Of a stretch of 39,832 bases of DNA, positions 15,987 to 26,257 are shown piece after piece. Position numbers and translations under genes: made by a program. Position 1 is the first letter of the stretch; each line of letters begins with the position of its first letter. The notes below the pieces were generated by a model that did no database searches, had not been told where the DNA came from, and saw only the letters and a list, made by a program, of their open reading frames with translations. The stretch is from Gallionellaceae bacterium (GTDB lineage: Bacteria > Pseudomonadota > Gammaproteobacteria > Burkholderiales > Gallionellaceae). Location of the stretch: positions 19,940 through 59,771 of the forward strand of contig VIKH01000001.1 of the NCBI GenBank assembly GCA_008080515.1, in the 5' to 3' direction.

Positions 15987-16223
15987 TTATTTGATGGTCG
16001 TTTGAGGTATGACGATTTTTTGCGCGCCACGAACTGCACCGATAGCGAATATCACCGCACCCAGCACGATCAACAGAAGAAACTCGTAGGCAGGCACGCC
16101 ACCGCGCAAAGTCAACAGGCTGTCCATGACACCCAGCGCCATGATAATGAAACCGAATATCTTGGTTTTTACGCCCCGTCGGGTAGGCGGCAGCTCGTCT
16201 ACGCTGTCACCCTGCGTGACCAT
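15987..16223 (-). CDS. Small two-helix membrane protein, last gene of the cytochrome operon
   Basis: The 78-residue protein has a short charged N-terminus, then two hydrophobic helices at about 20-40 (IFGFIIMALGVMDSLL) and 46-66 (YEFLLLIVLGAVIFAIGAV), and a basic tail. No haem or metal motif is seen. Its ATG overlaps the stop of the cytochrome c/EB_dh gene (TGATG), so it is translationally coupled and probably belongs to the same complex. Possible roles are an accessory subunit or assembly factor. I do not recognise a named family. Confidence 0.75.
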   Translation of the reverse strand: MVTQGDSVDELPPTRRGVKTKIFGFIIMALGVMDSLLTLRGGVPAYEFLLLIVLGAVIFAIGAVRGAQKIVIPQTTIK

Positions 16224-17746
16224 CAGGCGGCCTTGTTGCCCGCGCTACGAGCCCACCACAGCAATCCGCCCGCAAACAGCGCCGCGATCACCAGCGCGGT
16301 CACCAGCGGCTTGGAGCCGGTTGCCGGTTTCAGCAACAGCCAGTACCAGGTCGTCATGGTGTGCTTGGAGCCTTTTTCGCTGTTGTTGCTGCCATCCCAA
16401 GCGGCAAACGCGACCGGGATGAACTTGCCCTCAACAAACTGCATGTCCTTGTCGGTGCTGGCCGTAGTGAGCGGGCGCACCATCAGCACCTTCCAGGTTC
16501 CATCGCTATAGCTCGACTTGGCCGTGAGTCCGGCGCTTGCCGCTTCGCGCTTCTCGATATCCTTGAAGCCTTTGCTGTTAAGTATGCCGACGGTTTCTGG
16601 CGCATCCTTGCCGCCGCTTTTCCAGTGCCAGACATTCACCGGGTGCGCCGCATCGCCCATGCCAAAGTAAGGTTTCTGCATTTCGGAAGGGATGGTGACA
16701 GGCAACTGCACCGCGACACCGTCTTGCTCGATCGGGGTATCGGCGAGCTTTCCTGCGCTGTCGTCCCCCGGGGTGCTTTTAGTGCGGTCATCCCACTCCA
16801 GCAGCATCGCCACCGCCTTGTCGTTATACATGGCACGCACCGTGATGGTGTCGCTGGAGGGCAGGAAGTAGCGCTCTTTGCCGATAATCTGTGGAACCAT
16901 GTAGAACGTGGTGGCCTCGGATTTCTCCCAGCGTGCATCGTCGGTAGCGGAAGGCAATTCCCCCTCAACCTTGCTTACTTTGACGACGGTGTTGTCGGCG
17001 CTGACTTTCTGGCCAGTCTGGGCCAGGGATGCCACATAGTTGGCGACGTGCCAGCGTTCTTCTATGGAGAGCTTCTTTTTGCTCTTGGGGTCGGCGAAGG
17101 ACGGCATCTCGGTGCCGGCAATGCCGGTGGAAATGCGCGAAAAAATATCTTTCGGCTCTGCGCTGCCACGGTAGGTCCAGGGTTTGGTCAAGTTGCGCGG
17201 CCAGGTGCGTTCGCCGGCCTCGCCTTTAAGCCGCTTGGAGGCACTGCCCTTGCCGCTCTTGCCGTGGCATTCCACGCAACGATCCCCTTCCTCGAACAGC
17301 TTTTTGCCTTTCTCGATACTCTCGGCGGAACTTGAGATCTGTGTACCAAAATCCACCTGCTTGGCGGGCGGCTTTTCGTAGCTGGCGAATTTTTTGACAT
17401 AGGCGACCAAGTCCCACATGTCTTGCTCTGTAAGGATGTCGCTCCAGCCCGGCATCGCCGTTCCCGGCATGCCATCGCGTATCATGCGGAAGATGTCGTC
17501 GTCGTTGGGTGTCAGGTCTTCAAAATCCGAAGTGCGGATTTTGTAGTTGCCCGAAGTGAAGTCGCGCGGCGGCGGATTGAGATGATCCTTGGCCGCACCT
17601 TTGCCATCGCCCTCATCGCCGTGGCACCAGGTGCAACGCATGTCATAAATTACCTTGCCCTTTTCCGCCGTTCCGGGTTTTGCCATCGCCGGTCCGACCG
17701 CAAATAGCGCGGAGCAAAGCGCCAGCAACGCGAATTTGTTAGCCAT
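16223..17746 (-). CDS. Dihaem cytochrome c fused to an ethylbenzene-dehydrogenase-type haem b domain
   Basis: The 507-residue protein is periplasmic and membrane-anchored. A signal peptide ends near AMA (residue 22). Cytochrome c domain 1 has C38-T-W-C41-H42 with likely axial M98; domain 2 has C157-V-E-C160-H161 with GTEMPSF. From about 240 to 470 follows a beta-rich domain of the EB_dh type (haem-b-binding gamma subunit of DMSO-reductase-family enzymes such as ethylbenzene dehydrogenase and NxrC-like proteins), then a C-terminal helix (PLVTALVIAALFAGGLLWW). I chose ATG 17746 because AGGAAA precedes it and the signal peptide starts there; the longer frame (17773) would overlap the upstream gene. 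No molybdopterin alpha or Fe-S beta subunit is in the window, so this domain apparently serves a different partner, probably the bd-like protein. Confidence 0.85.
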   Translation of the reverse strand: MANKFALLALCSALFAVGPAMAKPGTAEKGKVIYDMRCTWCHGDEGDGKGAAKDHLNPPPRDFTSGNYKIRTSDFEDLTPNDDDIFRMIRDGMPGTAMPGWSDILTEQDMWDLVAYVKKFASYEKPPAKQVDFGTQISSSAESIEKGKKLFEEGDRCVECHGKSGKGSASKRLKGEAGERTWPRNLTKPWTYRGSAEPKDIFSRISTGIAGTEMPSFADPKSKKKLSIEERWHVANYVASLAQTGQKVSADNTVVKVSKVEGELPSATDDARWEKSEATTFYMVPQIIGKERYFLPSSDTITVRAMYNDKAVAMLLEWDDRTKSTPGDDSAGKLADTPIEQDGVAVQLPVTIPSEMQKPYFGMGDAAHPVNVWHWKSGGKDAPETVGILNSKGFKDIEKREAASAGLTAKSSYSDGTWKVLMVRPLTTASTDKDMQFVEGKFIPVAFAAWDGSNNSEKGSKHTMTTWYWLLLKPATGSKPLVTALVIAALFAGGLLWWARSAGNKAA

Positions 17747-17765
17747 TGTTTTTCCTAAACGCCGA

Positions 17766-18551
17766 TTATTCATGTGACCACGACCTCGGTTGTCTGCCGG
17801 TATAGTTGTACAGGAACAGGATCACTTTCCAAATTTCATCTTCCGTCAGAAATTCCTGCCAGACCGGCATGGACGAAATCCACGGCGCCGCCTCGGCGGG
17901 CAGGCCCGGGCCGCCGGTGGCGATGCGCCAGAACAGGAAGGATTCCTGCAACTGCGCGATGGTGCCCACGTCCTGGAAGTTGAGCGGGGTGGGGTTCAAT
18001 CCCGAGGCATAAGGCCCCTTGCCGTCCAGCTTGTCGCCGTGGCAATACTGGCAGTTCTTGATGTAAACATCGCCGCCCTCTTTCACCAGCGCCTTGAACT
18101 TGGCCGGGTCTTCCTTCTCGAACTTGCGGTAAGGGTTCTCCAGCGTGGCCAGGTTGTAGCTTTTGCCGTAAGCCTTGAACTTGTTGGGTGGCGCGGGATG
18201 GATGGTGCGCAGCTCCACCGGCGCCTCGAAGCTGGGCAACATGCTGGAGTATGTGTAATAGCCGGCCAGCAATGGCACGATCACGAACACCACGTTGCGC
18301 ACCATCTTCCTGGACGGGTCTTCCACCAGAGCCTTGATCGGTCCCGCCAGTTCCTGCGCACCCTCCTCGGTGAAGGTAAACACCATCACCACGCCCGCCA
18401 CCACGAACACCATGTACATGGTGAGCAGGCTCTTGGGAATAAGCTGGCCCAGCAACACGTCAAACAGCAGGATGAAGCTGAAATATGCCCCGGCTATCAC
18501 CAGCACCATTTGCAACAGGCGGGGAATGACTCTTTTCGGTGTCGCGCTCAT
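17766..18551 (-). CDS. Membrane-bound monohaem cytochrome c
   Basis: The 261-residue protein has three N-terminal membrane helices (about 12-35, 42-60, 84-104) and then a periplasmic cytochrome c domain with C167-Q-Y-C170-H171 and a probable methionine ligand in SSMPVW near 229. It has no cleavable signal. The fold recalls membrane-anchored cytochromes such as CcoP-like or photosynthetic-type subunits but has only one CXXCH. ATG 18551 overlaps the preceding dihaem gene by four bases. In the operon it could pass electrons between the soluble cytochromes and the bd-like subunit. Confidence 0.85.
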   Translation of the reverse strand: MSATPKRVIPRLLQMVLVIAGAYFSFILLFDVLLGQLIPKSLLTMYMVFVVAGVVMVFTFTEEGAQELAGPIKALVEDPSRKMVRNVVFVIVPLLAGYYTYSSMLPSFEAPVELRTIHPAPPNKFKAYGKSYNLATLENPYRKFEKEDPAKFKALVKEGGDVYIKNCQYCHGDKLDGKGPYASGLNPTPLNFQDVGTIAQLQESFLFWRIATGGPGLPAEAAPWISSMPVWQEFLTEDEIWKVILFLYNYTGRQPRSWSHE

Positions 18552-19357
18552 TTTTTCAACCCCGCCATGTAGTTCAGCAGCATCTCCAACTCCTTGGCTT
18601 TCATTTGCTCGCCATAGTTCTTGGGCATCATCCCGGCGTTAAACCCCTTGGCGACCACCGCATCCGGATCCAGCATCGCTTGCCGCAAATATTCCTTGTT
18701 GCGCGTTGCGCCGATCTTGGTAAGGTCTGGCCCCATCTCTCCGGTTTGGCCGGCAATCTTATGGCAACCACCGCAGCCATACTTGGTCACGACTGCGTCA
18801 GGTGTGGTCAGCGGAGCTTCCTCGGCCTTGGCGGCACCTTCGGTCGGAGGCGCCATCTTGGGAATTTCCACCGTCACTTCGCTGCCGCTCGAATCCTGCA
18901 GATAGGCGATGACCGCTTTGGTCTCGACCTCGTTGAACCCGATACCGCCGCCGGTCACATCCGGCATCGGGCTTTCGGTATCGTTGGTGCCCGCTTTGCC
19001 GAATCCGGATACCACGAAAGCCGACGGCTTAACCAGCGACTCCATCAGGTATTCCTCGACCGTTTTGGCGGTGCCCTTGTAACGCGCATCCTTCAGGCGC
19101 TCTGCCGAAACGGTACCGATTTTGTCCAGCATCGGCGCGCGGCCCAGCGAGTTGTGGCACAAGGTGCAGGTGCCCTTGCCGTCGTAGTTTTTCTTGCCCA
19201 GCGCGATAAACTGCTCCATGGTCATGGCACCGAGATCCACCTTTTCTTCGACGGGTGGGTCAGCCGGTTTGATCTGTGGGATGCCGAAGTTGGAAAATCC
19301 CCAGAACCCGCTGATCACCAGCAGGCTAAAGGCGACAACCTTGAGAAAATTGGTCAT
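18548..19357 (-). CDS. Dihaem cytochrome c, membrane-anchored
   Basis: The 269-residue protein has an N-terminal helix (about 5-24) that serves as signal or anchor, then two cytochrome c domains: C64-T-L-C67-H68 and C195-G-G-C198-H199. Candidate methionine ligands are in ESPMPDV and AGMMPKNY. An acidic/Ala-Pro linker (about 165-185) joins the domains. The ATG overlaps the stop of the bd-like gene (ATGA at 19357-19354), so translation is coupled and a stoichiometric complex is likely. It is the best candidate for direct electron donor to the bd-like protein. Confidence 0.88.
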   Translation of the reverse strand: MTNFLKVVAFSLLVISGFWGFSNFGIPQIKPADPPVEEKVDLGAMTMEQFIALGKKNYDGKGTCTLCHNSLGRAPMLDKIGTVSAERLKDARYKGTAKTVEEYLMESLVKPSAFVVSGFGKAGTNDTESPMPDVTGGGIGFNEVETKAVIAYLQDSSGSEVTVEIPKMAPPTEGAAKAEEAPLTTPDAVVTKYGCGGCHKIAGQTGEMGPDLTKIGATRNKEYLRQAMLDPDAVVAKGFNAGMMPKNYGEQMKAKELEMLLNYMAGLKK

Positions 19358-21243
19358 GCCTGCTGCTCCTTCCAGTAACCCTTGGCAACGACGTGCCGCC
19401 CGCTGATCGTACTCAACCAGAATACGAAAATCACCATCGCCATGAACATGATCGTCCCAACCGAAACGACGCTGGCCACATAACCCAGCCCAGGCGTAAA
19501 GGCGTCAGGCGAACCGTCGCGGAAGATGTTGGAAATGTGCCAGTGCTGGCGGATGCCGGAGCGCACGTAACCCATCAGGCCCATCAGCCAGGTAAAGGAC
19601 ACCGCCAGCAGGAACAGCGCGTACTGGGAACGGGGAGGCATACGCCCCCAGTGCAACGGCGCTACATCTTTCGCCCCCTTGTACATGAACGCATCTATCA
19701 CCACGCTGATGATGATGATGACCAGCGTAGTCAACACTTGGGGGACGGAGGCTGCCACCTTGTACACGGTGTTGGTGAAATAGCCGTGGTAGACCCCCAG
19801 GATCGTGATGTTGATGAGACCAGCGGTAAACAGCGCGATCTGCGCCGCGTTACCTGCTGATGCCCACGATACGGTAGCGATTTTATTGGCGCGTCGGTAG
19901 AACATGAAGCTCAAGAAGGTAAACACCAGCAAATAGTTCACCGCCGTATTTTTCGCCGGCATGATACCCAATACACCGAGGTACTTGTGATATGGCCCGC
20001 CCAGATCCTTGAGCTCGGAGTTGGTAAGCACCAGCGTATGCGGCGTGAACCACACCAGGAACGCGATCACCAGCACGAAGGCGATATATTTGATTCTGGG
20101 GTTGTAGCGGTAAGCGCCTTCGCTGCGCCCCATGCCGCACCACAGGTAATAGTTGGCCGACAGGAACAGCGCGCCGATCAGCACCGCCTGGATGATGAAA
20201 ATCCATGCGAACACGCCGCCCATCAGGGTGATGCCCATTTGCTGGCTGTAGGCATACATTTCGGCGGTGAGGTAATAACCGGCGAAAGGCAGCGGCAGCA
20301 GCGCGGCAATGGCGATAAAGTTGGCGTTGTAGCCCATCCAGTCGTAGTGGGCGCGCTCTTCCTTCTTCTGCGCGCTGAGGAACTTGAACGCGGCATACGC
20401 GCCCACGACCGAGCCGCCATATGCCACGTTGGCGACTACGCGGTGGATGTTGATCGGGTTCCACAGGAAGTTGTGGATCGCCGCCCAGGTGTCGCCGTTG
20501 AATACGCCCGCTGCGTCCACCGCTGCGGGGCTCATCATGAAGGTGGTCCAGGCGTTAGCCAGGAACATGAGCTGGAGACCGACCGCATTGAGCAACAGCC
20601 CCAAGGTGAGGTGTACCCACTTCCTGTTTCCGCCCTGCAGCCAGTGCCAGCCGTAATAGTACATATACAGGACTGCGCTTTCAGCGAAGAACAGCAGCGC
20701 GTACGCCCACATGCTTCCCTTGAAAATCAAGGCCATGTATTTGAACAAATCGGGGTAGAACAGAATCATGCAGAAAGCCAGCAGGCCGCCCAGAATGGCG
20801 GTCAACGAATAAGCGGTGATGCTGACCTTGATAAACTCGTAGGCCATGTTGTCGTAGCGCTCATCGCGTGTCGCCATACCGATCACTTCGATGATGAACA
20901 CAAACATGGGAACCGCTACCACGAAGGCGCCGAACCACAGATGCAACTGGGCCACCAGCCAGATTGCCACCCTGGAATTCACGCCAGGAATCGTGGGGTA
21001 GTCGGATGCCGTAAGTTTGGGCGCAGGGGGAAAAACCACCGCTTTGGCGGCAGGTGCTGCGGGATTTGCCGGAGCGGCGGCAGCGGCTGCCGGAGCGGTC
21101 GCCGTAGCAGGGGCGGCAGCAGCCGATGTGGCGGCGGTCGGCTCGGATGCATTCGCTTCAGGTGCAAAAGCGGACAGCATGAACATGGCCGCCATAGCCA
21201 GCACAAATGCCCCGCAAAAATTTCTTATATTCTGTGTTAGCAA
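19354..21243 (-). CDS. Cytochrome bd-like oxidase subunit I (CydA-related), extended form
   Basis: The 629-residue protein starts with TTG at 21243, six bases after AGGAG. A hydrophobic leader (about 8-28) and an Ala/Pro-rich linker (30-70) precede the membrane part. CydA-like features are H101 in QLHLWFGAF (first haem ligand position), FFAESAVLYMYYYGWHW (about 185-201, conserved acidic helix) and H267 in INIHRVVANVAYGG (second haem ligand position). About five extra C-terminal helices make it longer than usual CydA (about 520). The GRQPW quinol-loop motif is absent and no cydB is nearby. bd-like proteins of this kind are known from Nitrospira and related chemolithotrophs, where a cytochrome c electron source has been proposed. 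Here it is flanked by cytochrome c genes, which fits. Oxidase activity is inferred. Confidence 0.82.
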   Translation of the reverse strand: MLTQNIRNFCGAFVLAMAAMFMLSAFAPEANASEPTAATSAAAAPATATAPAAAAAAPANPAAPAAKAVVFPPAPKLTASDYPTIPGVNSRVAIWLVAQLHLWFGAFVVAVPMFVFIIEVIGMATRDERYDNMAYEFIKVSITAYSLTAILGGLLAFCMILFYPDLFKYMALIFKGSMWAYALLFFAESAVLYMYYYGWHWLQGGNRKWVHLTLGLLLNAVGLQLMFLANAWTTFMMSPAAVDAAGVFNGDTWAAIHNFLWNPINIHRVVANVAYGGSVVGAYAAFKFLSAQKKEERAHYDWMGYNANFIAIAALLPLPFAGYYLTAEMYAYSQQMGITLMGGVFAWIFIIQAVLIGALFLSANYYLWCGMGRSEGAYRYNPRIKYIAFVLVIAFLVWFTPHTLVLTNSELKDLGGPYHKYLGVLGIMPAKNTAVNYLLVFTFLSFMFYRRANKIATVSWASAGNAAQIALFTAGLINITILGVYHGYFTNTVYKVAASVPQVLTTLVIIIISVVIDAFMYKGAKDVAPLHWGRMPPRSQYALFLLAVSFTWLMGLMGYVRSGIRQHWHISNIFRDGSPDAFTPGLGYVASVVSVGTIMFMAMVIFVFWLSTISGRHVVAKGYWKEQQA

Positions 21244-21312
21244 GATTGACTCCTGTTTATGCGCGCACGGGCGTTACCAGCAGGGGAATACCCTTGATGG
21301 GAACGCAAACCC

Positions 21313-21429
21313 TTAATGGTGATATATCAGCGTCAACCCCTGGAGTTTCATCATGGTGAAATCCAGGGCAAGAAATACGAGGCCAAACACAACAAATGCG
21401 CCGACGAACGGCAACAGATAAGCTTTCAT
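21313..21429 (-). CDS. 38-aa single-helix membrane peptide
   Basis: ATG at 21429, TAA at 21313-21315. The peptide has one helix (LLPFVGAFVVFGLVFLAL) and ends in LIYHH. AGGGCG precedes the ATG and lies in the end of the 41-aa gene, whose stop is four bases upstream. Gene order (just before the bd-like gene) parallels CydX/CcoQ-type small subunits of terminal oxidases, but there is no recognisable sequence similarity. The two terminal histidines could bind metal or haem. Confidence 0.7.
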   Translation of the reverse strand: MKAYLLPFVGAFVVFGLVFLALDFTMMKLQGLTLIYHH

Positions 21430-21433
21430 GTCG

Positions 21434-21559
21434 TTACGCCCTCAAGAACCACACAAAAAAGGCGGTTGTTGCAACCAGAACCGCGACAAAGAACGCAGGT
21501 CCCAACCACGGGTATTTTGATTCCCCGCACTCGTGTGTTTCGCATTTATCAGCAGCCAT
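21434..21559 (-). CDS. 41-aa membrane peptide with CxxHxC motif
   Basis: ATG at 21559, TAA at 21434-21436. The hydrophilic N-terminus holds C6-E-T-H9-E-C11, followed by one helix (WLGPAFFVAVLVATTAFFVWFL). GAAGG/AGGA sequences precede the ATG. The Cys-His-Cys cluster suggests metal binding, for example copper or iron delivery to the oxidase, although this is inference. It is the first gene after the internal terminator at 21601-21637 and four bases before the 38-aa gene. Confidence 0.7.
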   Translation of the reverse strand: MAADKCETHECGESKYPWLGPAFFVAVLVATTAFFVWFLRA

Positions 21560-21600
21560 GTCCTGCCCTTCCTTCATCTTTCGACGGCTCGACGCCGGTT

Positions 21601-21637
21601 AAAAATCTTCCCGGAAAGAGAAGATTCTCTTTCCGGG
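21601..21637 (-). terminator. Strong hairpin terminator inside the cytochrome cluster
   Basis: CCCGGAAAGAGAA (21610-21622) pairs perfectly with TTCTCTTTCCGGG (21625-21637). On the minus strand it is followed by AAGATTTTT (T run at 21605-21601). It lies 14 bases after the 34-aa gene stop and 41 bases before the next start, so it would split the cluster or set the ratio of upstream cytochromes to the oxidase. Confidence 0.85.
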
Positions 21638-21651
21638 CACATCTTGCCGAA

Positions 21652-21756
21652 TTACAAAACGTAGTAATACAGGATGAGGCAGACGAAAACGACGTTTACC
21701 AGCATCCCGGAAAAAATGACGCCATCGGCAAGATATTTTTTGCTCAAAAGCTTCAT
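21652..21756 (-). CDS. 34-aa single-helix membrane peptide
   Basis: ATG at 21756, TAA at 21652-21654. A short basic start (MKLLSKKY) is followed by one hydrophobic helix (VIFSGMLVNVVFVCLILYYYVL) that runs to the C-terminus. The ATG is nine bases after the stop of the monohaem cytochrome c gene, with GTGGA between. It resembles the small helper subunits of oxidases in size only. It is directly before the internal terminator. Confidence 0.65.
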   Translation of the reverse strand: MKLLSKKYLADGVIFSGMLVNVVFVCLILYYYVL

Positions 21757-21765
21757 GGGATCCAC

Positions 21766-22128
21766 TTATTTGCCCTTGCAGTTGCACATCTTGCGGATGT
21801 AGACCAGCAAGCCATCCACTTCGGCAGCCGTCAGGGTTGCGCCCCAGGGCGGCATCAGCGGCGATTTGCTGATGGAGGGCCCGCCGTCCTTGATTACGCC
21901 CCGGATGTCGTCGTCGGAGCGCTTTGCCATATCTGTTGTATTGGTGAAATCGCGCGGATCGGTGGCAAAATCCTTGGTGACGTTGATGCCTTTGCCATCA
22001 CCTTTTTCGCCGTGGCACTGGGCGCAATAAAAATCAAACACCTGCTTGGTATCCGCAGCCTGCGCCGCACCGCCCGCACTCAAAGCCAAACCAAGCGCCA
22101 CGGCAGCCGTCATTACAATTCTCGACAT
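21766..22128 (-). CDS. Periplasmic monohaem cytochrome c
   Basis: The 120-residue protein has a signal peptide (cut after about AQAA, residue 25) and a class I cytochrome c fold: C35-A-Q-C38-H39, the loop GEKGDGKG, and MPPWG with the likely methionine ligand near residue 92. A C-terminal MCNCKGK adds two unusual cysteines. The N-terminal half resembles domain 1 of the EB_dh fusion further down the operon, with similar CHGxxGDGKG and DPRDFT/PPRDFT segments, so the two may share a common origin. It lies 28 bases after the dihaem cytochrome gene. It likely acts as a soluble electron shuttle. Confidence 0.9.
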   Translation of the reverse strand: MSRIVMTAAVALGLALSAGGAAQAADTKQVFDFYCAQCHGEKGDGKGINVTKDFATDPRDFTNTTDMAKRSDDDIRGVIKDGGPSISKSPLMPPWGATLTAAEVDGLLVYIRKMCNCKGK

Positions 22129-22156
22129 GATTCTATCTCCGTTAATTTCGTCTGGT

Positions 22157-22798
22157 TTATTCGAAAGTGGCTACATATGCCGCCACAGCTTCCAAGTCCT
22201 TCGGATTGAGCACGCTGCCGAAGTCCGGCATGTCTCGAACCGGCTTGAAGTGTTTGATGTTCGCCAAGTAGGCGTAAACCCAGTCCGGGTTCAACCTTTT
22301 TGCGGCACCAACCAAGCTCGGCCCGCTTAACCCGCCACCCTTTTCGGTTGCATGGCATCCGCCGCAAGGCATTTTTTTGTTGAAGATTTGCTTGGCTTGC
22401 GGGGTCGCGGCGGGCTTGATTACCCCCGCCTTGACTTCAGGTGACGTCAGCCCCATCAAGTAATCGGTAAGCGCCGCCGCATCACCGGCTGACGACTTCG
22501 GGTGGTCACCCTTGTTCTTGTCGGTGAGCGAGTTGTATTTCAGCGGGCGGATCGGCTTGGGGTCCTGCAACCATGCCCCGAGCCAGGCCTTTTGAAACTT
22601 GCTGCCCGCATACCACAGTTCCGGGCCTTTCTTGGCCAACTGATCGGCAATCGTTTTCTCCTTGGCCGGGCCATCGGTGTAATGACAACTGGCGCAGCTT
22701 TTCTTGAAAATTGCATCTCCGCCAGCCGCGTAGCTGGGCGCTGTCGCCATAACCAGCATGGCCGCACCAATGGAAACAGTAACTGCAAGCAGTTTCAT
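22157..22798 (-). CDS. Periplasmic dihaem cytochrome c, first gene of the cluster
   Basis: The 213-residue protein has a signal peptide (cut after about SYA, residue 24) and two haem sites, C35-A-S-C38-H39 and C145-G-G-C148-H149. The second domain has VRDMPDFG as probable methionine ligand. The domain spacing differs from cytochrome c4, so I leave it unnamed. AGGAAGG-like bases precede the ATG at 22798. A long leader with a predicted FNR-type promoter lies upstream. It could collect electrons from outer-membrane or quinol-linked donors for the operon's oxidase. Confidence 0.9.
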   Translation of the reverse strand: MKLLAVTVSIGAAMLVMATAPSYAAGGDAIFKKSCASCHYTDGPAKEKTIADQLAKKGPELWYAGSKFQKAWLGAWLQDPKPIRPLKYNSLTDKNKGDHPKSSAGDAAALTDYLMGLTSPEVKAGVIKPAATPQAKQIFNKKMPCGGCHATEKGGGLSGPSLVGAAKRLNPDWVYAYLANIKHFKPVRDMPDFGSVLNPKDLEAVAAYVATFE

Positions 22799-23216: not shown

Positions 23217-23819
23217 TTAGAGCCAGCCCTCCGGAACATGCTGCAGGTCACCCGGCCCGTCAATATCGTGCAACAGCGGGCCAACCCCCAGCGACCAACC
23301 CAAGCGATGAACGCGCTCTATGGTCTCGCGCGCCACGCTCTCCGAGCCCCAAGAAATGCCGCAGAACAAATGCGAGTGAAATTTTGCAAGCCCCAGCAAT
23401 ACATATCCGCCATCGGCGGCGGGGTAAATGACGGCATCCTTCTGCTTGAGCGCCGCAGCTGCATCGCGCAACAGCGCCGCGCTCATTTCGGCGCAATCGG
23501 TGCCGATCAGCAACACGGGTTCTCCCTGCCCGATCAGGCGCTGCGCGGCGCGGGCAAGGCGCTCGCCGAGGTCGCCGCTCCCCTGATCCGTGATTTCTAT
23601 CCCTGGGCCGATTTCCGTGCCAACCCACTCGGGTGCAGTGATTTCCGGCGTTATGCGCAACTCTGTCTGGCCGATCGCTGCTTCAGCCGCGCATGACAAG
23701 GCGTGTTGCAACATCCGGTGCGCGAGCTTCGCCGCACCTTCCGGCCCGAGAGCCGGTATCAGCCGCGTCTTGGCAAACCCTGCCCGGGGTGCCTTGGCAA
23801 AAATAATGATTCTGGTCAT
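23217..23819 (-). CDS. DUF2064/TIGR04282-type nucleotide-sugar transferase-like protein
   Basis: The 200-residue protein has a GT-A-like start MTRIIIFAKAPRAGFAKTRL and the family segments LLIGTDCAEM and YPAADGGYVLLGL, which characterise the DUF2064 (TIGR04282) glycosyltransferase-like family. The ATG at 23819 overlaps the preceding gene stop (ATGA); a longer upstream frame is a shadow. These proteins are commonly paired with TIGR04283 glycosyltransferases and ArsS-like radical SAM enzymes, as here. Substrate is unknown; involvement in an arsenosugar-like product is inferred from context. Confidence 0.85.
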   Translation of the reverse strand: MTRIIIFAKAPRAGFAKTRLIPALGPEGAAKLAHRMLQHALSCAAEAAIGQTELRITPEITAPEWVGTEIGPGIEITDQGSGDLGERLARAAQRLIGQGEPVLLIGTDCAEMSAALLRDAAAALKQKDAVIYPAADGGYVLLGLAKFHSHLFCGISWGSESVARETIERVHRLGWSLGVGPLLHDIDGPGDLQHVPEGWL

Positions 23820-24502
23820 CTGTATAACCTGGCAAGCTCGCTGGCGGGCACCCCGCGCCAATACAGCCAGCGCAAGCGCCACATCAGCCAGATCGTTTCC
23901 CATACCCCCCGCGTTTCCCAGCGCCGCCCGGAAGTGGTCACTCGCTCTAACAAGCAGACTGGCCTGGACAACGCCAGCAATCGTTTGGACAGCTCGATAT
24001 CCTCCATCAGGGGTTGCTCCGGAAAACCGCCTGCCGCATCGAAAGCGGGGCGCGCCACAAACATGGCCTGATCGCCGGTGGCGATGCCGGTGAGGCGCGA
24101 GCGCCAGTTCATCAGAGCAGCGATCACCCGCAACATGAAATGGCTGCCTTGGATGCGCACATCAAAACGCCCCCACATATTTTCGGGGCGGCGCCCGTTA
24201 CGCCGGGTGGCGGCCTCGATTGCCTGCTCTGCGGAAGGGGGCAGCCGCGTGTCGGCGTGCAAAAACAGCAGGACATCGCCGCTGGCAGCTGTCGCGCCCG
24301 CGTTCATTTGCCGCGCCCTCCCGCGCCCGGCACAAACCAGCCGCACGCCCGCACCTGAAACAAGCTGCTGCGAGCCATCCTCACTCCCGCCATCTGCCAC
24401 GATCACTTCTGCGCCGATCGCATACAGCGGTACGAGATGCTCCAGCAAACCCGGCAACTCACCGGCTTCGTTCAGCACCGGGATAATGACCGAAAGCCGC
24501 AT
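23816..24502 (-). CDS. TIGR04283-type family 2 glycosyltransferase
   Basis: The 228-residue protein opens with MRLSVIIPVLNEAGELPGLLEHL, the GT2 nucleotide-binding strand. Then come VIVADGGSEDGS, the family-typical GRARQMNAGA, and LLFLHADTRLP with the DxD-like metal site. The C-terminal part has GDQAMFV and MEDIELSKRL. The ATG at 24502 follows GAGGAT; the open frame continues upstream but overlaps the TVP38-type gene. It is coupled to the DUF2064 gene downstream and lies four bases after the TVP38-type gene, so the four genes 26257-23217 look like one unit. Confidence 0.88.
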   Translation of the reverse strand: MRLSVIIPVLNEAGELPGLLEHLVPLYAIGAEVIVADGGSEDGSQQLVSGAGVRLVCAGRGRARQMNAGATAASGDVLLFLHADTRLPPSAEQAIEAATRRNGRRPENMWGRFDVRIQGSHFMLRVIAALMNWRSRLTGIATGDQAMFVARPAFDAAGGFPEQPLMEDIELSKRLLALSRPVCLLERVTTSGRRWETRGVWETIWLMWRLRWLYWRGVPASELARLYR

Positions 24503-24506
24503 ATCC

Positions 24507-25181
24507 TCAAGCGCGCCGCCGCCGAAGCGCTTGCCCGGCCCGCCTGGCCGCCAGGGGAAACGCGCCCAGCAAGGCGAATGACAGCAGCACCTCCGGCGCA
24601 AGGATGCCGGACAGGCTGTCAACGCGCCCCAGTTGCGTGCCCGCATTCACATATACCAGCGTGCCCGGCAACATACCGATCTGGCTGACCCAATAGAAGG
24701 TAACGGTGCGCACAGGCGTCAAGCCCATCAGCAGGTTGATCAGGAAAAACGGAAATACCGGCACGAGGCGCAGCATGAAAAGGTAAAAGGCACCCTCCCG
24801 CACCATACCTTCATTGACCCCTTTCAGCCTGTCGCCGAAACGTTGCTGCACCATGTCGCGCAGCAGGTAGCGCGAAGCCAGGAAAGCGAGCGTTGCGCCG
24901 ATGGTGGACGCAAAAGACACCAGCAGCACGCCGCCCCAGAAGCCGAACAATGCGCCTATCGCCAGGGACATGACCGTGGCGCCCGGCAACGACAGCGCGA
25001 CGACGCCAACATAGATCAAGAATGCTGCCAAAGCGGTCAGCCAGGGCGACTGCGCCCGCATGGCCGCAAACTGTCCCTGGCTCTCCTTGAGCGACTCCAG
25101 CGTCAGGTAGCGATCAAACCCCGTGCCGAAAAACAGGGCAACCACCCCGACCGCCAGCAAGATAACCACCGTTTTTCTCAT
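24507..25181 (-). CDS. TVP38/TMEM64 (VTT/DedA-like) membrane protein
   Basis: The 224-residue protein has about six membrane segments. The VTT-domain signature is visible: a central ALSLPGATVMSLAIGALFGFWGGVLLVSFASTIGATLAFLASRYLLRD (about 62-109), then LRLVPVFPFFLINLLMGLTPVRTVTFYWVSQIGMLPGTLVYVNAG. Members of this family are lipid-transport or homeostasis proteins, and they often accompany TIGR04283/DUF2064/ArsS genes. GGA precedes the ATG at 25181. There are 116 bases without a gene between it and arsS. Confidence 0.88.
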   Translation of the reverse strand: MRKTVVILLAVGVVALFFGTGFDRYLTLESLKESQGQFAAMRAQSPWLTALAAFLIYVGVVALSLPGATVMSLAIGALFGFWGGVLLVSFASTIGATLAFLASRYLLRDMVQQRFGDRLKGVNEGMVREGAFYLFMLRLVPVFPFFLINLLMGLTPVRTVTFYWVSQIGMLPGTLVYVNAGTQLGRVDSLSGILAPEVLLSFALLGAFPLAARRAGQALRRRRA

Positions 25182-25297
25182 CTCATTCCAGCTTTATTTG
25201 AAGGCAAACAAGACGGCGGCAACGAGCGAACAAAACAAGTGGCACAGCGAGGGGTGAGCGATGAAGCCAACGAAGTCTCACCGGTAAATGGAACGGT

Positions 25298-26257
25298 TCA
25301 GCCGTGCAGCGCGCCGCCGCAACTGCTGCCCTGGCCGGCCGTGCAACCGTAGCAGTGATCGGCGACCCGGACGATATTGCCTTCCAGGCCGGAATGCAGC
25401 AGATCGCGCAAGTGCGGGCGGCCCTTCCCCGGCAGAGCCAGCCCAAGCTGCTGGTTGAAATCGCAGTCGTAAAGATAGCCCTGCCAATCGGCGCTCACCA
25501 GATTACGGCACATCACGTTGCCGAGGTTGGCGGCGGAAAAGCTTCCCTTCAGCAGGCGCAGGTAATCGTTGAACTGCCCCCCGGAAACCAACGCACTGCC
25601 GAAGCGCTGAATCGGCATGTTGGTCATCACGTACAGCCGGTTGAACACGATGCGAAAGCGCTCGAATAATTCTCGCTTGTAATCCGCCTGCAGCGCAACT
25701 TGATCGGATGGCAGCGCCGGGCCTGACGGGTTGTAGACCAGATGCAGGGCAAGGCCGCTGCCTTCCTGCCCGTAGCCCAGCGCATTGAGCAGTTTGAGCG
25801 CCGCGATGCTTTTGTCGAACACGCCTTCCCCGCGCTGTTTGTCCACATTGGCGGAGGTGTAGCACGGCAGCGACGCCACGATTTCCACCCGGTGGTCGGC
25901 CAGAAATTCGGCGAGGCCGCCTTGCCCCGGCTCGAACAGGATAGTCAGGTTGCAGCGGTCAATCACATGCGCGCCCAGCACGGTAGCCTTGACCACCAAT
26001 TCGCGGAATCCGGGATGCAGTTCCGGGGTGCCTCCAGTCAGGTCGAGCGTTCCGATGCGGCGCGCTTCCAGCACGCGCGGAACCAGCCCGATCACATCCC
26101 CGCCCATGATTTCGGTGCGGTTGGGGCCGGCGTTGACGTGGCAATGCTGGCAGGACTGGTTGCACCGGTAACCCAGATTCACCTGCAAAATGTCCAGTTG
26201 ACCCCGATACGGCGCGGGAAATCCGGAGTCCTGAAGCAAGGGCAGGGTAGCGAGCAT
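25298..26257 (-). CDS. arsS: Radical SAM protein ArsS (DUF3641 family)
   Basis: The 319-residue enzyme has the radical SAM 4Fe-4S motif CxxxCxxC in YRCNQSCQHCHVNAGP (about 32-43), then LDLTGGTPELHP. The C-terminal DUF3641 domain has the cysteine-rich end DHCYGCTAGQGSSCGG. ArsS-type enzymes take part in arsenosugar biosynthesis after ArsM methylation; some homologues use selenocysteine at the C-terminal motif, but here all positions are ordinary cysteine codons. GGAG precedes the ATG at 26257. No arsM or other ars gene is nearby, so the arsenic link is by family only. Confidence 0.88.
   Translation of the reverse strand: MLATLPLLQDSGFPAPYRGQLDILQVNLGYRCNQSCQHCHVNAGPNRTEIMGGDVIGLVPRVLEARRIGTLDLTGGTPELHPGFRELVVKATVLGAHVIDRCNLTILFEPGQGGLAEFLADHRVEIVASLPCYTSANVDKQRGEGVFDKSIAALKLLNALGYGQEGSGLALHLVYNPSGPALPSDQVALQADYKRELFERFRIVFNRLYVMTNMPIQRFGSALVSGGQFNDYLRLLKGSFSAANLGNVMCRNLVSADWQGYLYDCDFNQQLGLALPGKGRPHLRDLLHSGLEGNIVRVADHCYGCTAGQGSSCGGALHG

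Follow-up and report, generated by a model that had tools for sequence, protein, structure and literature searches.

A ten-gene operon of a Gallionellaceae bacterium joins a CydA-like protein to five c-type cytochromes and co-occurs with a candidate haem-type cassette

A stretch of 39,832 nucleotides from a Gallionellaceae bacterium (assembly GCA_008080515.1, contig VIKH01000001.1, positions 19,940 to 59,771; hereafter the window) was examined for an operon that encodes a CydA-like membrane protein together with c-type cytochromes. The operon was found to occupy positions 15987-22798 of the minus strand, as the initial annotation had placed it, and to comprise ten genes, all on that strand and arranged as c1, c2, S1, S2, S3, CydA-like, c3, c4, c5 and S4. 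The first gene, c1 (22157..22798), encodes a 213-amino-acid (aa) dihaem cytochrome c with two CXXCH motifs, a start that appears signal-peptide-like by inspection and homologues in synteny. It is followed by c2 (21766..22128; a 120-aa monohaem cytochrome c) and by three genes whose products each have a single hydrophobic stretch, including: S1 (21652..21765; 37 aa, GTG start), S2 (21434..21577; 47 aa) and S3 (21313..21429; 38 aa). The gene of the 629-aa CydA-like protein (19354..21243; TTG start) then precedes c3 (18548..19357; a 269-aa dihaem cytochrome c), c4 (17766..18551; a 261-aa monohaem cytochrome c), c5 (16223..17773; a 516-aa protein of the alt_NxrC type with two haem-c domains, an EB_dh domain and a hydrophobic C-terminal stretch) and the last gene, S4 (15987..16223; a 78-aa small hydrophobic protein). 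By inspection, c3 has a hydrophobic N-terminus and c4 hydrophobic N-terminal stretches. The five cytochromes hold eight CXXCH motifs (2+1+2+1+2 for c1 to c5), in agreement with the initial annotation. That annotation had announced nine genes; its parts (one CydA-like protein, five cytochromes and four small proteins) are all present and its own list sums to ten, so 'nine' was a miscount. Its description of most junctions as overlapping or a few bases apart applies to six of the nine (overlaps of 4, 4, 8 and 1 bases, one zero gap and a gap of 4), with gaps of 28, 74 and 69 bases at the others.

The four small genes were compared by codon position across 17 of 20 fetched loci, 15 from Gallionellaceae and 2 from other families. 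Each was found to evolve as coding sequence, with differences mostly at the third codon position (for S1, 98/62/207 at positions 1/2/3), and the small open reading frames (ORFs) were recovered in 16/17 (S1), 17/17 (S2), 17/17 (S3) and 15/17 (S4) loci. The operon is real and not a chance arrangement. Homologues of S1 also stand at the same site in alphaproteobacterial loci, opposite in strand to the operon (L071:9373-9456, L073:9405-9503 and L074:9471-9554, minus). Before the operon lie four further minus-strand genes (window 23217-26257), which adjoin it also in the family loci L045, L046, L047, L050, L051, L054 and L057.

The CydA-like protein was matched by Pfam Cyt_bd_oxida_I over residues 90-338 only, above cut-off, and by no NCBIfam model at E 0.001. 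The quinol-loop (Q-loop) motif GRQPW, reported missing at the outset, is absent from its 629-aa translation and present in the canonical CydA of another genome (L037). No cydB was found either, as had been stated: the host genome, a 2.91-Mb draft that is 90.49% complete, gave one PF01654 match, three PF00115 matches and zero matches to PF02322 (CydB), in a search whose controls matched in 10 of 14. The CydA fold and the N-terminal haem residues of the cytochrome bd superfamily are nevertheless in place, with H101, H267 and E188 falling at canonical haem-site positions. Residues were aligned for 92 type-A rows and 21 rows of a second type, A′, from 120 hits; L042 was set apart, L127 fell out on its score and 5 identical rows were removed. 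H101 was kept in 90/90 of the type-A rows having a letter there and H267 in 92/92; these are the haem ligands whose conservation the initial annotation had suggested checking. A structure model covered the full length and showed 14 long helices after a signal-like first helix. For c5, Pfam assigned two haem-c domains followed by EB_dh, the fusion that had been noted from the start; its Met372 and Lys470 align with the Met and Lys of both 7b04_C and 2ivf_C, a pair that occurs in only 22/89 rows.

Strong matches to the CydA-like protein were detected in 21 of 159 Gallionellaceae genomes, with a 22nd weak, while a draw of 398 genomes from the phylum gave nine matches at E 0.001, four of them strong, including the window's own genome. 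A scan of named genomes yielded at least 552 confirmed relatives, the best 80 of which form the locus collection. Hosts among these best 80 of 552 include Gallionella-type bacteria, Mariprofundus, Rhodospirillales, Hyphomicrobiales, Acidiferrobacteraceae, Thiotrichales, Sedimenticola, Thiodiazotropha and records named 'Deltaproteobacteria', Nitrospinae and Nitrospirae, among others. Judging by kinship with the nearest named loci, which are Gallionellales and Gallionella records, the host of the window probably oxidises iron. The Nitrospirota and Nitrospinota loci were 56-65% identical, in a fetched set without any locus labelled Nitrospira (genus) or anammox. In the tree, the record L101 falls with Acidiferrobacteraceae despite its name, Dehalococcoidia, and is for that reason probably a mislabelled bin. 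Gene order downstream of the CydA-like gene was found to be nearly invariant where 4.5 kb was covered, with c3 and c4 in 55/55 loci and c5 in 54/55 (in the exception, L090, c5 is present but farther off), so that the expected adjoining of a bd-superfamily protein and cytochrome c genes is general. The upstream block is less so, c1 occurring in 28/53 and S3 in 32/53 loci with 3 kb upstream covered. The initial annotation had named a complete Q loop with a separate cydB, or homologues lacking cytochrome c neighbours, as contrary evidence, and neither was encountered where it could be searched for.

In 21/80 loci a tandem second set (A′, c3′, c4′, c5′), about 45% identical, stands before the first. 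The 21 A′ rows split from all other rows in the tree, whose root is not meaningful since the two outgroup rows were wrong-frame ORFs. The A′ proteins are longer (frames of about 715-785 aa), and the 21 tandem loci fall between L067 and L114. Lysine at position 101, seen in A′ of L041, was discarded as an A′ trait, being present in only 2/21 A′ rows. Other neighbours recur: the clusters of alpha- and gammaproteobacterial loci have beside them a large protein with HEAT repeats and an fn3-like protein of 244-261 aa (e.g., L079:125-2119, L073:1674-2459 and L119:5558-8921). In one deltaproteobacterial locus, c5 is followed by a cytochrome b-type gene (L089:14677-15846).

Clustering of neighbouring genes and annotation of representatives identified a three-gene cassette encoding a Usp-PCP_red protein, a radical SAM protein and a flavoprotein. 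The Usp-PCP_red protein consists of two Usp domains and PCP_red; these domains, found in the neighbours of 592-745 aa, ruled out the latter as the radical-SAM protein. The cassette's radical-SAM/SPASM protein, itself with PCP_red, is nearest to AhbD and NirJ2, falls below the cut-offs of both models and has CX3CX2C in the own copy and in six relatives checked, while the flavoprotein exceeds the cut-off of a protoporphyrinogen-oxidase model. Within the host genome the cassette is outside the window, beyond the reach of the initial annotation, on contig C45, behind a gene like that of lactonase-type nitrous oxide (N2O) reductase (L-NosZ). Several Gallionella-type loci have an L-NosZ-like gene and the cassette behind S4; alphaproteobacterial loci have the cassette behind S4 or c5, and in gammaproteobacterial ones it is often divergent. 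Near the operon, any cassette gene was detected in 44/80 loci and all three in 20/80, with any present in 35/49 loci having at least one long flank and in 11/15 having both.

Genome-wide counting was done for the Usp-PCP_red gene alone among the cassette genes, and the family counts are of strong matches only; left out as weak were 1/22 CydA genomes (G110, 22.8 bits), 14/33 Usp-PCP_red genomes and 21/33 L-NosZ genomes. Across the 159 Gallionellaceae genomes, CydA was found in 21, Usp-PCP_red in 19 and both in 16. In the high-quality genomes Usp-PCP_red was present in 10/10 with CydA vs 2/85 without (Fisher 6.5e-12, not corrected for relatedness). Beyond the family, we searched the genomes of 50 of the 80 loci (39 without Usp-PCP_red in the surrounding DNA and 11 with), excepting L069. 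Among these 49, spread over several phyla, 45 had Usp-PCP_red at 140 bits or more, one match being partial (L086), with genomes lacking CydA counted for comparison in the family only; the gene was missed in L062, L078, L110 and L139. Of the 38 genomes without a copy in the DNA around CydA, 34 had one, some perhaps just beyond that DNA.

Two further gene types adjoin the operon in some relatives. The first, L-NosZ, is its neighbour in several loci of Gallionella type and of Mariprofundus, with the L055 protein scoring 750 bits against NF052460 (cut-off 700); of the collection, 3/80 loci have it. The own L-NosZ-like gene (lactonase-type, clade III; L149, contig C45, 11608-13365, minus) was a tblastn match with one stop at the edge of the frame, and its ATG-started 585-aa ORF is open. 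Strong matches to L-NosZ occurred in 12/159 family genomes, 10 of these with CydA; the portion available of a Gallionellaceae pangenome study reports nosZ in none of its genomes (PMC10734462). The second type was found in 7/80 loci (L116, L117, L119, L122, L126, L135 and L140; also seen in L041 and L042, partly cut by the locus end), where c5 is followed by genes for MauG-type peroxidases, a Rieske protein and an arsenite-oxidase-like molybdenum (Mo) subunit. This set matches idrABP1P2. Its Mo subunit exceeds the cut-off of the arsenite-oxidase model, and arsenite-oxidase loci are described as being without the peroxidases in the part of the iodate study at hand (PMC8692401). By gene content, these look like iodate-reductase sets. 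Both the wide distribution of the operon and the iodate- and N2O-reductase-like genes beside some relatives suggest a module that is not confined to nitrite oxidation.

Overall, we favour a membrane-bound multi-haem complex from the bd superfamily (OR-N-like, alt_NxrC type) that would serve as a cytochrome c-linked terminal reductase, probably of O2, and may carry a tailored haem, a tentative reading whose chances we put just short of even. In this scheme, electrons would enter on the periplasmic side through c1 and c2 and be relayed by c3, c4 and c5 to CydA-like haems bound at H101 and H267, where a small acceptor, most likely O2, would be reduced. CydX is a structural microprotein of canonical cytochrome bd, and S1-S4 may have a comparable structural role. 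The separate cassette would make or handle a tailored tetrapyrrole that the complex probably needs. The broader proposal is that an undescribed haem is supplied to this bd branch by a dedicated cassette, and that the operon is an exchangeable cytochrome c-linked module serving iron, nitrite, sulfur, N2O and iodate metabolisms; this is rather more doubtful. The link to the cassette is the part most worth following. For OR-N and bd-like complexes, a near-constant tetrapyrrole-type gene opens the cofactor to direct testing.

The cassette may instead serve another target, such as L-NosZ or other cytochromes, and merely travel with the operon, which is somewhat unlikely and would be compatible with the other functional readings. 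Usp-PCP_red is present in 12/12 family genomes with strong L-NosZ, two of them without CydA, and the radical-SAM protein, below the AhbD and NirJ2 cut-offs, has no assigned substrate. Two observations run counter to the co-occurrence: (i) G100 and G103 carry Usp-PCP_red and L-NosZ with no PF01654 match (in G100 only about 1 kb of contig is left beyond the cassette); and (ii) 5/21 family CydA genomes have no strong Usp-PCP_red match, all five being <90% complete. However, CydA genomes without L-NosZ keep Usp-PCP_red (G013, G063, G070, G101, G117 and G133), the gene adjoins the operon in L052, L053, L056 and L159, and its presence in 45/49 genomes of several phyla likewise speaks for the operon as its partner.

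The main rival to a terminal reductase is a quinone:cytochrome c oxidoreductase that would link the quinone pool to periplasmic cytochrome c. Electrons would run in reverse to supply NADH in lithotrophs that take them up at cytochrome c, or forwards to periplasmic reductases such as those of iodate or N2O. Such a role has been proposed for the Nitrospira/Nitrospina bd-like cluster in the sections consulted (PMC6606698, PMC3578206). By name, several hosts belong to lithotrophic lineages; the adjoining iodate-reductase-like (7/80) and L-NosZ (3/80) genes are of periplasmic type; and the CydA-like model appears to resemble chains of alternative complex III and PsrC. We consider this role unlikely, though it deserves the most serious attention among the other functions. 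A bd-superfamily nitric oxide (NO) reductase that would turn NO into N2O and pass it to the adjoining L-NosZ is improbable: L-NosZ adjoins the operon in the Gallionella-type and Mariprofundus loci mentioned, and lies on another contig in the own genome, yet it occurs in only 10/21 family CydA genomes and 3/80 collection loci, none of the three being iodate-type or alphaproteobacterial. A decayed or orphan canonical CydA, which the Pfam match limited to the N-terminal half might suggest, is hardly credible and is refuted by the conservation across at least 552 confirmed relatives, the kept gene order and the full-length model.

The complex was compared with known systems. Canonical CydAB has the Q-loop motif, CydB and a quinol donor, while the complex here is without the first two and has c-type cytochromes instead, with 14 helices in the CydA-like model vs the 9 usually given for canonical CydA. 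The OR-N family of the cytochrome bd superfamily was reportedly defined by Murali, Gennis and Hemp in 2021. The likeness to this family lies in a CydA-like protein for which a putative cytochrome c donor replaces quinol, and two of its features, the missing quinol-loop motif and adjoining c-type cytochrome genes, were found here. Proteins of the bd-like kind are treated as OR-N in the relevant passages of two accounts (PMC10839748, PMC12342949), one of which states that their composition and function still await confirmation by experiment (PMC10839748). Those passages do not mention the cassette, and among the openly licensed papers listed in literature searches none, judged by title or abstract opening, ties a bd-like oxidase to the cassette, iodate reductase or L-NosZ. 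In fold, the CydA-like model is similar to chains of PsrC and of alternative complex III, whose subunits are ActA-F; with the latter the likeness is one of the membrane subunit's fold only. The EB_dh domain of c5 is like nitrite oxidoreductase (NXR) subunit C (7b04_C) and the ethylbenzene dehydrogenase gamma subunit (2ivf_C), but unlike these it is fused to two haem-c domains resembling 6h5l_B.

The closest counterpart is the published bd-like_3/alt_NxrC_2 cluster of Nitrospira moscoviensis. According to the relevant excerpts, it is shared with Nitrospina and anammox bacteria as a conserved cluster and has been proposed to be an NXR anchor or a reverse-electron-flow complex (PMC6606698, PMC3578206). 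The Nitrospina text describes a bd-like oxidase of 14 helices with three helices replacing the Q loop, and the same cluster holds mono- and dihaem cytochromes c, together with an alternative NxrC that has two haem-c sites, a haem-b domain and membrane helices (PMC3578206, PMC6606698). Compared by description, the core here (bd-like protein, monohaem and dihaem cytochromes and alt_NxrC) appears to match that cluster. The EB_dh fusion is thus already known as alt_NxrC, and the initial view of the gene set as undescribed does not stand for the core. The duplicate bd-like_4 nearby in N. moscoviensis recalls the tandem A/A′ sets. In its published hosts the cluster accompanies NXR; here the scanned neighbours showed no NXR, with no molybdopterin oxidoreductase among the 17 window proteins scanned, a search for NXR that did not extend to the remaining ORFs of the window, to the genome or to the relatives. 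Unlike the published cluster, the present operon also contains c1, c2 and four microproteins. What is new here is this ten-gene form with its conserved microproteins, the partner cassette of an AhbD/NirJ2-like radical SAM protein, Usp-PCP_red and a protoporphyrinogen-oxidase-like flavoprotein, and the adjoining of iodate-reductase-like or lactonase-type N2O-reductase genes in some relatives.
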